DNA from: Tropicimonas marinistellae
GTDB taxonomy: Bacteria; Pseudomonadota; Alphaproteobacteria; Rhodobacterales; Rhodobacteraceae
Length of the DNA stretch: 64,000 bases
Reading direction: 5' to 3'
Assembly (NCBI RefSeq): GCF_001509585.1
Contig: NZ_LNCI01000008.1
Location: forward strand, 186,001-250,000
Position numbers and translations under genes: made by a program. The notes beneath the pieces are model-generated. The model searched no databases, had not been told where the DNA came from, and was given only the letters and a program-made list of their open reading frames with translations. Numbering within the stretch: the first letter of the stretch is position 1; each line of letters begins with the position of its first letter. Positions 13,116 to 15,769 of the stretch are shown here, one piece after another.

Positions 13116-14183
13116 TTACTCAGCCGCGTGGCGCCGGTGCCCAGACCCAGATCGGTAGAGCGCGAGCAGCGGGGTCGGGTCGAGCCGCATCCTTCGCATC
13201 ACGTTTTTCACGCGCCACAACATGTCCCATTCAAGCTTGGCCAGGGCGGGGTGGTGCGTCTTCCATATCCGTCGCCGGTGCAGCAGCCACCCGAGCCGCG
13301 ATCTGCGAGACGAGGGGACCGGTACGTCGCCGAGCATTTCGAGCAGCAGGCGAGACTGCAATTCAAGCGCGAGCTCGAACTTCCAATGTCGGCATTTGCG
13401 GGCGATCCAGACCTGATCGAACCGGTTGGCCCCGGCCCTCGCCAGATCGGCGAGTTCGAGAAGGTAGCGCAAGTTGATATCGCCTTTCGACATGCCTTCG
13501 TCGTGCAGCATGTCGTGGGCGACGTTCATCACGAGTTGCAGCGTCAAGTCAGGGACACGGATCCGCGCAGCGCCAAAGGGCACCTCGCGCGTGCGCTCTT
13601 CCAATTCGCGTGGCGAGATGACCTCTGCCATGCGGTCGCCGAGGCGGAAATGCAGATCGACCGCGCCGACATCCTGCACCCGGTAGTAGCTGCCTGTGGA
13701 ATGGCAATCGGCGCTGTCGGCAAAGACGTCATACCCAAGCCCGCGCAGAACGCGGTCCGCCACCTCGACCTCACCACGGTCAATAACGATGTCCAGGTCA
13801 GCCAGCATGCGCGCCACGTTTTCCACGGCCTCTGCCTCGGCAAGAACGGCGGCGCCTTTGATGGCAAGAGGCACGATTCCGGCCCGGTTCATCGCAACGG
13901 TGAGTTCTTCCAGCTGGGCCGCGAAGCGACTGTTGCGCTCCCCGTTGAGATGGAAGATCTCTTCAAGATAGGCAAGCGCCTCGGGCTCGACCGAACCGGC
14001 GACGGAGTCCCGACACAGTGAAAGATACAGGCGCGGTGTGATCAGATGCTCATTGGCCGTCGCAATACACTGCATCCAGTCGGTCTCGTCATTCACATCC
14101 CCGCGGATGCAAGCGGCGACCTGACCGAATGGAGATGTGCGTGGTAGATGACTTCCACGTGCCGTGGAGGGATCGTGAATCAT
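13116..14183 (-). CDS. Nucleotidyltransferase-fold protein (NTP_transf_5 / PF14907-like)
   Basis: 355 residues, last gene of a leftward cassette, with its ATG overlapping the stop of the kinase-like gene (ATGA). The family signature is visible: IVPLAIKGAAVLAEA (Lys109-Gly110), then ADLDIVID with Asp129 and Asp131 as the likely metal-binding pair of a pol-beta-type nucleotidyltransferase, and a later helical region with NVAHDMLHDEG. This family is often seen beside HPr-kinase-like and PqqD-like proteins in lasso-peptide and other peptide-modification loci (family knowledge). The substrate here is unknown; a peptide product of the same cassette is an inference. Confidence 0.82.
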   Translation of the reverse strand: MIHDPSTARGSHLPRTSPFGQVAACIRGDVNDETDWMQCIATANEHLITPRLYLSLCRDSVAGSVEPEALAYLEEIFHLNGERNSRFAAQLEELTVAMNRAGIVPLAIKGAAVLAEAEAVENVARMLADLDIVIDRGEVEVADRVLRGLGYDVFADSADCHSTGSYYRVQDVGAVDLHFRLGDRMAEVISPRELEERTREVPFGAARIRVPDLTLQLVMNVAHDMLHDEGMSKGDINLRYLLELADLARAGANRFDQVWIARKCRHWKFELALELQSRLLLEMLGDVPVPSSRRSRLGWLLHRRRIWKTHHPALAKLEWDMLWRVKNVMRRMRLDPTPLLALYRSGSGHRRHAAE

Positions 14184-15343
14184 ATCAGATCCTTCCGGTT
14201 CGGGCCGGTCTGTGCCCAGACCTCGTTGATTCGCGCTACCCCGTCATCAAGATCACTGTAGGTCAGCTTGACGAAGTCGAGACCATCGGCGCACGCGGCC
14301 AGCGCATCGAAATCCTCTGACGTCATGCGCAGGTCGTTCGACCATGCGCCTTCGACGATAGTTGCAATGAATGAATCCTCGCCAAGCGGTTCGAGCTGTG
14401 CCGGTGCGTTGGTCTCGCGGTTAAGAACAACGGCGCACCGAACGCGCAGCGGTTGCGGGTCCGCAGAGGAAACGAGCGGCAGGTATTGGACGCACATCTG
14501 ATCGTGCCGGACGAACCCAACATCTTCCTGAAGGTCCGGATGCAGGTGCGCCAGGATCGGCCATGCCCCGTCCTTCAAGGTGATGGGAAGCGGGATCGCT
14601 CGAACGGTTCCATCGGATTGCAAAGCCGCGAGATCGTCCCCCAACAAATCGAAACCGTGTGATGCAAGAGTTACGGAAAGCGTTGACTTGCCCGCACCGG
14701 GCGGGCCGACGATCAGCAAGGCTTCACCGTCCCGATGGAGCGTCGCCACGTGCAACGTGACACCCTCCGTCGCGCGCAAGGCAAGTTCGGTGATTGCCGA
14801 TTTCAACCCGGGCCCGGCTTCTGTCCAACTGAACTCGTGGCTGTCCTCGCCACTCCGCGCAATTCCCACACCGTTCTCATGTTCGGTTACGATGATGTGT
14901 TTCTGTGCCGGCACCTGCGTTTCCAAATGCGAGAAAAGACCCCGCAACATCCGGTGTGCGCGATCGCCGGTGAAATGGATGCCGAGCCCGACGCCACAGA
15001 TCGAAATGTTCGTGCGAGAGGTGATGCGGGCCGGGGATTTGCCAACCGAGATGAAATCGATTGCGCCAATCTCAGGGAGGTCATCGAGTATCGCCTGTGC
15101 ATCGTAACCAATTGCATCGGCTTCTTCGGCGAGTTCTTCGACGCCGATGCCCCGTTCGATCAATGGCCAGAGGCGTTCAACCTGCGGACCGACGCCAAAA
15201 AGGTTCTGGCGTTCCGGCACGAACAAGTAGGGCGTTCCCTTTATTCGTGCGAGTCGGACGCCTTTTGCAGGAACGATGACGTAGTCCGGATCGGAAAAAA
15301 ACGCACCAGACTTACTGGCTGGCTGTACGGCGGCACATAACAT
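14180..15343 (-). CDS. HPr kinase-like protein with N-terminal PqqD-like domain
   Basis: 387 residues from the ATG at 15343, chosen because GGAG lies 9 bases upstream; in-frame starts at 15352 and 15358 have poor spacing. Residues about 30-95 resemble PqqD, the RiPP recognition fold (VERLWPLIERGIGVEELAEEA then a helical tail ending in DDLPEIGAID). The C-terminal half is HPr-kinase-like: Walker A GPPGAGKST (213-221) and LLGDDLAAL with Asp236-Asp237 at the position of the HprK catalytic acidic pair. No HPr or PTS gene is nearby, so a role in sugar regulation is unlikely. Homologous kinases phosphorylate lasso peptides or belong to the HPr-rel-A type systems. Here the recognition-like and kinase-like parts are on one chain. 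Confidence 0.82.
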   Translation of the reverse strand: MLCAAVQPASKSGAFFSDPDYVIVPAKGVRLARIKGTPYLFVPERQNLFGVGPQVERLWPLIERGIGVEELAEEADAIGYDAQAILDDLPEIGAIDFISVGKSPARITSRTNISICGVGLGIHFTGDRAHRMLRGLFSHLETQVPAQKHIIVTEHENGVGIARSGEDSHEFSWTEAGPGLKSAITELALRATEGVTLHVATLHRDGEALLIVGPPGAGKSTLSVTLASHGFDLLGDDLAALQSDGTVRAIPLPITLKDGAWPILAHLHPDLQEDVGFVRHDQMCVQYLPLVSSADPQPLRVRCAVVLNRETNAPAQLEPLGEDSFIATIVEGAWSNDLRMTSEDFDALAACADGLDFVKLTYSDLDDGVARINEVWAQTGPNRKDLI

Positions 15344-15362
15344 TGAACTCATCTCCACATTG

Positions 15363-15396
15363 AAACGTGCCCAATCAAACTCGATGGGGCACGTTT
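15363..15396 (-). terminator. Strong hairpin between peptide gene and kinase gene
   Basis: Arms AAACGTGCCC (15363-15372) and GGGCACGTTT (15387-15396) pair perfectly; across one A-G mismatch the stem continues with ATC/GAT, leaving a 6-base loop. On the leftward transcript it lies 43 bases after the peptide stop and is followed by only a short T run. It would let the peptide be made in excess over its partner enzymes by partial termination or by protecting the 3' end of the message. It also sits close to the kinase ribosome site and could affect its translation. Confidence 0.7.
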
Positions 15397-15439
15397 GCTA
15401 GGGTCAGTCGGCTACTGGCCTTATCGAAGCATCAGCGCT

Positions 15440-15769
15440 CTAGATGCCGTCGAATCCGCCACCGCCGCGGCCACCACGACCGCCACCGCCGCCGAAACCG
15501 CCGCCGCCGCCACCGTGGCCGCCACGCCCGCCGCCACCGTAGCCGCCACCACCGTGACCGCCACGACCGCCGCCACCATGTCCGCGTCTGGGACCTTTAT
15601 CCCACCAGGATTCCGCACCGCCCGATTTCGCGACGTCCTGACCGGCCATTGCGGTCGAGAGCAGGAACGAGACTGTCGGAGGCGTCACAACTGCGTATTT
15701 GCCGGCTTTCGCGAGCATTTTACGGCGGGACGGCGACTGCAGCCCTTCGTCTTTTTCATGTTCGTTCAT
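15440..15769 (-). CDS. Small glycine-rich peptide with Tat-like leader, candidate cassette substrate
   Basis: 109 residues. The first 25 are charged and contain SRRKMLAKAG, close to the Tat consensus S-R-R-x-F-L-K. A hydrophobic stretch with TPPTVSFLLSTAMA follows, ending in a possible AxA-type cleavage site. Residues from about 62 to the end are almost only Gly with interspersed His, Arg, Tyr and Phe (GHGGGGRGGHGGGGYGGGG-like) and the chain ends in FDGI. A Trp-Trp pair precedes the tail. It is the first gene of the leftward cassette, 96 bases from the kinase ATG. The leader plus low-complexity core next to a PqqD-like domain suggests a modified or exported peptide. It could instead be a small structural, metal-binding (His) protein. 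The start has only a weak GGATAAAG site. Confidence 0.68.
   Translation of the reverse strand: MNEHEKDEGLQSPSRRKMLAKAGKYAVVTPPTVSFLLSTAMAGQDVAKSGGAESWWDKGPRRGHGGGGRGGHGGGGYGGGGRGGHGGGGGGFGGGGGRGGRGGGGFDGI

Follow-up and report, generated by a model that had tools for sequence, protein, structure and literature searches.

What would a bacterium do with a small peptide gene set beside genes for a kinase-like protein and a nucleotidyltransferase? The question is raised by a three-gene cassette in the window, a 64,000-nucleotide stretch of Tropicimonas marinistellae in which all coordinates below are positions and all cassette genes lie on the (-) strand. The first gene (15440..15769), defined by its open reading frame and by homologous leaders, encodes a precursor-like peptide of 109 residues with a leader (residues 1 to about 47) and a core rich in Gly, His and Arg. 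The second (14180..15343), identified by its open reading frame and profile matches, encodes a 387-residue fusion of a PqqD-type recognition element (RRE) for ribosomally synthesized and post-translationally modified peptides (RiPPs) with an HPr-kinase-like domain. The third (13116..14183) encodes a 355-residue nucleotidyltransferase assigned by Pfam to PF14907, and its start overlaps the kinase stop in the ATGA at 14180-14183. The first-pass annotation of this DNA, made from the letters alone, had described such a leftward cassette with the peptide first, and the open reading frames bear this out.

The cassette is probably a stand-alone modification system of the RiPP type, in which the fused RRE-kinase would phosphorylate a Ser or Tyr at the leader-core border, the nucleotidyltransferase would elaborate the phosphate, and the product would leave by a route like twin-arginine translocation (Tat). 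In the literature found, as far as the available parts of those papers go, pairs of an HPr-kinase-like peptide kinase and a nucleotidyltransferase are described solely in the tailoring of lasso peptides. The pair in the window is a stand-alone one; it includes its own recognition domain and has a small substrate with an identifiable likely target residue. In this account, a testable proposal, tailoring enzymes of the lasso type would carry out RRE-dependent peptide modification where no lasso context is seen.

Conservation of the peptide beside its enzymes

Conservation of the small gene beside homologous kinases had been set beforehand, in the first-pass annotation, as the test of the cassette, and the gene is conserved there, including where the peptide did not serve as bait. 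With the enzymes as bait in 295 genomes of the family, three kinase relatives match over at least 287 residues, those of the window and of genomes G101 and G089, and a leader peptide lies beside all three. By phmmer the window peptide finds counterparts in G101 (E 6e-9) and in G089 (two peptides, E 6e-7 and 3e-4), where peptide and kinase lie within 249 and 301 bases of each other, respectively. A first leader profile, trained on the peptides of the window, G101 and G089 plus four more, has strong matches to small frames in just these three among 290 family genomes (Fisher p 2.5e-7). The remaining family matches have E 6.9e-7 or worse and fall in frames of more than 300 residues, save a 93-residue frame in the congener G007 that is part of a divergent module copy (L035).

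At the level of the class, the enzyme bait lists 26 kinase places in 385 genomes. A leader open reading frame adjoins eight of the ten strongest places (one of them, L033, with a weak leader match of E 0.0047) versus three of the 16 weaker ones (p 0.0034). The weaker places serve as the control; most of them have a shorter kinase and a nucleotidyltransferase but no leader. Counted by genome, the leader is present at E <= 1e-6 in 6/9 with a strong kinase versus 3/376 others.

The leader peptide is also found in all 15 plasmid loci fetched, which were drawn from overlapping sets of 17 and 27 records, 20 of the 27 being listed. One of them (L189) has broken frames and is counted as having the leader. 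The hosts are Leisingera, Parasedimentitalea, Ensifer, Sinorhizobium, Rhizobium and Novosphingobium; three of the loci come from Leisingera and two from S. meliloti, and in several pairs the two loci are almost the same. In Parasedimentitalea psychrophila the cassette lies on a plasmid of 58,037 bases. A second leader profile was trained on peptides including the window's and those of several class loci, and only the plasmid loci other than L185 (the same as L066) and the loci of the phylum search are untouched by its training. When the leader serves as bait, kinase and nucleotidyltransferase are found beside the peptide in three more genomes among 292 of the order, and 8/329 genomes of the phylum have a match, two of them, from another class, with the trio in the window's order. 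Elsewhere the gene order varies, with the peptide first, last or convergent.

When the loci are grouped, a leader lies alongside in 36/38 cassette loci versus 1/14 control kinase loci; this split was made after the peptides had been seen, whereas the count over the 26 class places was made before. Because the small gene is conserved beside the enzymes, also at loci found without using the peptide, it is no chance neighbour.

Enzymes, leader and border residue

That PqqD and HPr kinase form one chain, as the first-pass annotation had it, holds, because a profile of 15 aligned kinases matches RRE proteins and HPr kinases at separate positions. Against the Protein Data Bank, positions 9-89 of the profile match the RRE proteins TbiB1 (E 5e-9) and TfuB1 (E 3.2e-5), and HPr kinases cover positions 169-240, with 1ko7 at E 8.9e-7 over 169-234. 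With E up to 1 allowed, PF05402 (PqqD) matches nine of the 15 kinases, the best at 2.4e-10; the window's own is not among them, and for the PqqD part of this single protein Pfam gives no match. Profile and model place the RRE domain, strands followed by three helices, at residues about 25-95 (15059..15271, (-)). A Foldseek search with the model returns lasso B1 chains as its first six matches, the best at E 0.018 and none reaching E 0.001. Modelled in full from its single sequence, the kinase reached a predicted local distance difference test (pLDDT) of 37.9, and this poor model was set aside.

The HPr-kinase-like domain comprises residues 187-374 (14222..14785, (-)), as located by profile and by a published motif (PMC10368454). 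The window kinase scores below the thresholds of both TIGR04352 (HprK_rel_A; 82 bits, cut-off 200) and PF07475 (19.2 bits, gathering score 33.3). Its catalytic motif is complete, with H198, G213, G216, G218, K219, S220, D236 and D237; across the 15 kinases His and Lys are kept in all, Asp236 in 14 and Asp237 in 12. These are the eight motif residues listed for BsfK, H148-G163-G166-G168-K169-S170-D186-D187, shifted by 50 throughout (PMC10368454), and lasso kinases share a His-Lys-Asp-Asp motif (PMC9266682). Here and below, both papers are cited as far as their available parts go. Neither the kinase nor a two-row alignment found a relative in scans of genome contigs, the back-translated patterns probably being too strict.

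The PF14907 assignment of the third gene, likewise proposed at first pass, is secure (112.2 bits, cut-off 31.2, profile positions 1-248 of 249). Asp129-x-Asp131 (13791..13799, (-)) is present in 6/6 aligned proteins and Asp176 is Asp in 5/6; against solved structures the nucleotidyltransferase profile has no match at E 0.1.

The peptide family is held together by its leader, for which the consensus kept among relatives is RRxFLxxxGKFAxxTPPxVxLLLS. Conservation was counted by offset from the first Arg of the twin Arg (Arg15-Arg16 in the window, 15722..15727, (-)), which is present in all 36 leader peptides, a set chosen by the twin-Arg pattern. Leu at +4 is kept in 33 of the 36, Gly at +8 in 34, Ala at +11 in 32, Pro at +15 in 31 and Thr at offset 14 in 25. 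The set omits frames at contig ends (L127 second, L130, L158), a doubtful 107-residue frame in L116, near copies (L123 second, L126 third, L185-L190) and the peptides of the later phylum search; a leader-like frame of 170 residues in L129 was judged unrelated by eye. For the window peptide itself NCBIfam gives nothing at E up to 10, and the one Pfam match, to keratin (E 2.8), is due to chance.

Core composition varies widely, with Gly/His-rich, poly-Arg/Lys and poly-Asp/Glu forms, the extremes being the window's core with 62% Gly, Leisingera with a net charge of +17 and one G089 peptide with -17. C-termini also differ across the family. Over 16 loci, mean identity is 0.40 in the leader versus 0.24 in the core, and leader distances track those of the kinase (Mantel r 0.57) and the nucleotidyltransferase (r 0.71), with 0/5000 shuffles reaching either value; the test used 16 of 17 loci, L117 being omitted as its nucleotidyltransferase was translated in the wrong frame. 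G089 (L113, L114, L032) holds four leader peptides with unlike cores, one Arg-rich, one Asp/Glu-rich and two mixed, and two of the four lie without the enzymes in the stretch fetched. Outside the window's family, the peptides of L115, L117, L119-L122, L124 and L125 share the core motif NNGxGNGxxDG and mostly a C-terminal D-x-x-R.

At the border of leader and core stands the proposed modified residue, Ser49 in the window (15623..15625, (-)), located by alignment. Its column holds Ser in 19 rows and Tyr in seven and nothing else, in the 26 rows that remain after two of the 28 peptides are gapped there. Counted without gaps in the 36 peptides, a Ser or Tyr lies exactly at +34 from the first Arg in 28, and in the other eight within -4 to +2 of that place. 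Just ahead of the border, Ala at +30 (28/36) and at +32 (23/36) forms a site like that of a signal peptidase, and this A-x-A in most relatives suggests a signal peptidase rather than a dedicated peptidase. A kept leader, a free core and a fixed Ser/Tyr, in peptides whose occurrence among proteobacteria is scattered, together suggest a family of chemically modified peptides so far undescribed.

Tyr occupies the border in all four G089 peptides and in three peptides of L126 in G584, and the L127 peptide of that genome has Ser; the G584 count covers the assessed frames of L126 and L127, further frames being cut or left aside. The kinases of G089 and G584 carry Thr at 220 and Glu at 237, where Ser and Asp stand in 12/13 other aligned kinases. 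Tyr precursors may thus be paired with a kinase variant of their own, which, with two lineages, is a lead only; the pairing fits because BsfK itself did not accept Tyr (PMC10368454).

Proposed mechanism, known systems and rival explanations

Under the proposal, the RRE domain of the kinase would bind the conserved leader of the small peptide in the cytosol, and the fused HPr-kinase-like domain would then phosphorylate the border Ser (Ser49 here, Tyr in some lineages). Before export, the PF14907 nucleotidyltransferase would add a hexose or a nucleotide to the phosphate. The peptide would next be exported by its Tat-like signal and cut near the A-x-A site, which would put the modified residue near the new N-terminus. 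What can be read directly from sequence comprises the three genes, the fusion of RRE and kinase, the catalytic residues, the joint conservation of peptide and enzymes, and the kept leader with its Ser/Tyr. We infer leader binding, Ser49 phosphorylation and elaboration of the phosphate from the precedents of BsfK, PsmK and PsmN together with the match of the eight motif residues (PMC10368454, PMC9266682), and the export and cleavage steps are offered in the same spirit. The RiPP-type reading that the first-pass annotation had ventured thus gains a shared leader, a variable core, an RRE, tailoring enzymes and a candidate residue, while the modification itself stays at the level of a proposal. 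A bolder reading, quite possible in our view though we would stop short of calling it probable, is that these peptides form a new proteobacterial RiPP class: exported by Tat, with one phosphate-linked adduct (a phospho-hexose or phospho-nucleotide) on a Ser or Tyr near the new N-terminus, and with a core free to become poly-Gly, polycationic or polyanionic. In such a class one enzyme pair would serve several scattered precursors, and the Tyr lineages would have their own kinase variant.

The closest precedent is the bsf lasso cluster of Bradymonadales (BsfA precursor, BsfK, BsfB1 RRE), where BsfK phosphorylates Ser3 of the core and a separate RRE protein speeds the reaction greatly (PMC10368454). 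In addition to the eight kinase residues with the same spacing, an RRE that aids phosphorylation and a site at a Ser close behind the leader, both bsf features, make the two alike in part (PMC10368454). However, RRE and kinase are fused in the window cassette and separate in bsf, and the window leader has a twin Arg and a long hydrophobic stretch in place of the YxxPxL of the bsf leader (PMC10368454). The window's family further differs in its low-complexity cores, in the Tyr that replaces Ser in some lineages and in having no lasso gene among the scanned neighbours. In paeninodin and pseudomycoidin, a kinase, joined in pseudomycoidin by an annotated nucleotidyltransferase, likewise acts on a peptide hydroxyl: PsmK phosphorylates a Ser, and PsmN leads to hexoses on the phospho-Ser (PMC9266682). 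PsmN is likened to the window's nucleotidyltransferase by its annotation. Unlike in the window cassette, tailoring there acts on a lasso peptide, at its C-terminal Ser (PMC9266682). T. marinistellae has no member of the lasso B2 family: the B2 protease model (PF13471), which matched 2/14 control genomes, has no match in its whole genome. No lasso C cyclase (asparagine-synthetase-like) occurs among the eight neighbours, the rest of the genome not having been searched for it. Leu and Thr, at offsets 4 and 14 of the leader, are as far apart as the YxxPxL Leu (-12) and Thr -2 (PMC10368454). A lasso leader was nevertheless rejected, as the Thr is not universal and the Tyr and Pro of YxxPxL are missing; the spacing may be a lead for RRE binding, not a sign of membership.

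Three further systems combine similar parts. The HPr-rel-A system (TIGR04352, TIGR04353) has an HprK-like kinase and a PqqD-like part, and TIGR04352 matches all 15 aligned kinases and TIGR04353 two of them, but the window kinase stays below the cut-off as given above, its PqqD part is fused, and leader-like peptides accompany only 1/14 control kinase loci. HprK-like and PqqD-like parts also occur in the SynChlorMet cassette (TIGR04249 ScmC, TIGR04248 ScmD), which has radical S-adenosylmethionine (SAM) enzymes. The 15 kinases include 12 weak matches to TIGR04249 and four to TIGR04248, but the window kinase, with 21 of 125 bits, is far below the cut-off, and no radical SAM gene lies among the scanned neighbours. 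A leader likeness to the Cys-Xaa-Xaa-Xaa repeat peptides targeted by radical SAM enzymes (TIGR04117) is seen in 6/28 peptides (best E 5.1e-5), but the window peptide does not match and has no Cys. In the open-licence PMC papers searched, a stand-alone cassette of RRE-kinase and nucleotidyltransferase was not found described, and nothing was found on the HprK-related kinase, SynChlorMet or PF14907 by name. In the main text of two RRE surveys, a term search gave no word beginning with 'kinase'.

Several observations weigh against the proposal. Confidence in the single-sequence model of the RRE part is low to modest (pLDDT 54.8). Of the Tat-like character claimed at first pass, the relatives lend some support, TIGR01409 (Tat signal) matching 8/28 peptides, but it does not match the window's own peptide, which also has Asp rather than Ala at +30, the -3 position of the presumed cleavage site. 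A crude A-x-A rule places the Ser/Tyr at mature +2 in 22/33 family peptides versus 2/10 in a small control of other Tat-like proteins from the same loci. Since a change of Ser to Tyr abolished phosphorylation by BsfK, the Tyr peptides need another specificity (PMC10368454). Core distances, too, track the kinase weakly (Mantel r 0.34, 14/5000 shuffles), so shared descent accounts for part of the correlation between leader and enzymes. Nor is the association of genes complete: L157 and L159 (G863 and G584), among the ten strongest places, have no adjoining peptide, although peptides lie elsewhere in both genomes. Among the eight other class genomes with a leader match at E <= 1e-6 when the leader is the bait, the enzymes adjoin it in only four (G850, G885, G690, G592). 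Leaders lie without enzymes in the stretch fetched at twelve loci of the class stage and six of the phylum stage, and G619 has no nucleotidyltransferase at E 1e-8.

A rival explanation is an unmodified Tat-exported structural or surface peptide whose neighbouring kinase and nucleotidyltransferase act on surface polysaccharide in a shared envelope function. Low-complexity cores rich in Gly, Lys or Asp suit a matrix role, and on Leisingera plasmids (L176, L177, L190) polysaccharide genes, one of them for export, and the gene of a very large protein of Ig-like or cadherin-like type lie near the cassette, as does a lipopolysaccharide biosynthesis gene in Parasedimentitalea. We nonetheless regard this explanation as unlikely: neither the eight scanned neighbours in the window nor those in S. 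meliloti form an envelope set, and it leaves the fusion of RRE and kinase and the fixed border Ser/Tyr unexplained. A RiPP-type system modified elsewhere, at several core residues, at the C-terminus or in the leader, appears about as improbable. The C-terminal Ser is the target of PadeK and PsmK (PMC9266682), and a D-x-x-R end is seen in several peptides from outside the family of the window; yet the family has no common C-terminus, the window's being GFDGI, and the G101 peptide lacks any Ser, Thr or Tyr behind the border Ser, though it has a Thr two residues ahead of it. A regulatory module, one akin to toxin-antitoxin systems, or a phage-defence module in which the small peptide acts as sensor would account for the patchy distribution and for the absence of the cassette from the same site in a congener. 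MNT antitoxins, which contain a nucleotidyltransferase, offer a precedent. This we consider very improbable, as PADLOC matches the kinase only weakly, with two P-loop models, and does not match the peptide or the nucleotidyltransferase, and the peptide has an export-like leader and a variable core. Phosphorylation of the border residue by the RRE-kinase, with later elaboration, is thus the account we prefer.

Related loci and the surroundings of the cassette

The T. marinistellae genome may hold two further modules. At L033:4556-7458, a twin-Arg peptide of 101 residues with the border ...ASAYSDF, the weak leader match mentioned above, is followed by a 782-residue chain that matches both the kinase and the nucleotidyltransferase profiles, possibly a second module. 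At L034:6112-7659, a twin-Arg peptide of 118 residues (leader E 0.0008) precedes a 376-residue kinase, a possible third, and no nucleotidyltransferase was found in the 13 kb fetched. L174:8062-9762, with a 286-residue kinase and two nearby twin-Arg peptides bearing Arg/Lys-rich tails (...SARSSGG...), is perhaps a distant version of the cassette. Ensifer adhaerens Casida A (L189:3295-5508) has a split peptide frame and a short kinase frame (228 residues), unlike the related strain at L183.

Public records give the cassette genes general names only, including those of S. meliloti pSymB and of Leisingera. On pSymB (L180, L187) the trio is present and is annotated in Ak57 as serine kinase, nucleotidyltransferase and hypothetical protein, and in USDA1021 no feature is listed at the trio; in Leisingera it is annotated as two hypothetical proteins and a nucleotidyltransferase.

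In the window, the kinase gene starts with ATG, with GGAG nine bases upstream, and an alternative GTG start at 15358 is also open. Between the peptide and kinase genes lies a candidate stem-loop, AAACGTGCCC...GGGCACGTTT (15363..15396, (-)), which may be connected with uneven expression of the two genes. The evidence for it is weak, and no attenuator is claimed because the 96-nucleotide stretch that holds it folds only 1.44 standard deviations better than shuffles. A promoter scan of the locus found none, and terminator-like sites are about as frequent as in shuffles (4 vs 3.3).

Nothing unusual stands out among the eight scanned neighbours, which encode a penicillin-binding protein, MarR, an aminotransferase, a methyltransferase, a zinc dehydrogenase, a homogentisate dioxygenase, a phosphoesterase and a phosphoglycerate dehydrogenase. 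No dedicated leader peptidase or exporter is among them. The genus was sampled in one other genome, where about 1 kb separates the dehydrogenase and homogentisate genes and the cassette is lacking, so that its presence at this site is variable; between the two flanking genes stands instead a 279-residue gene, amino-acid-binding-like by eye.

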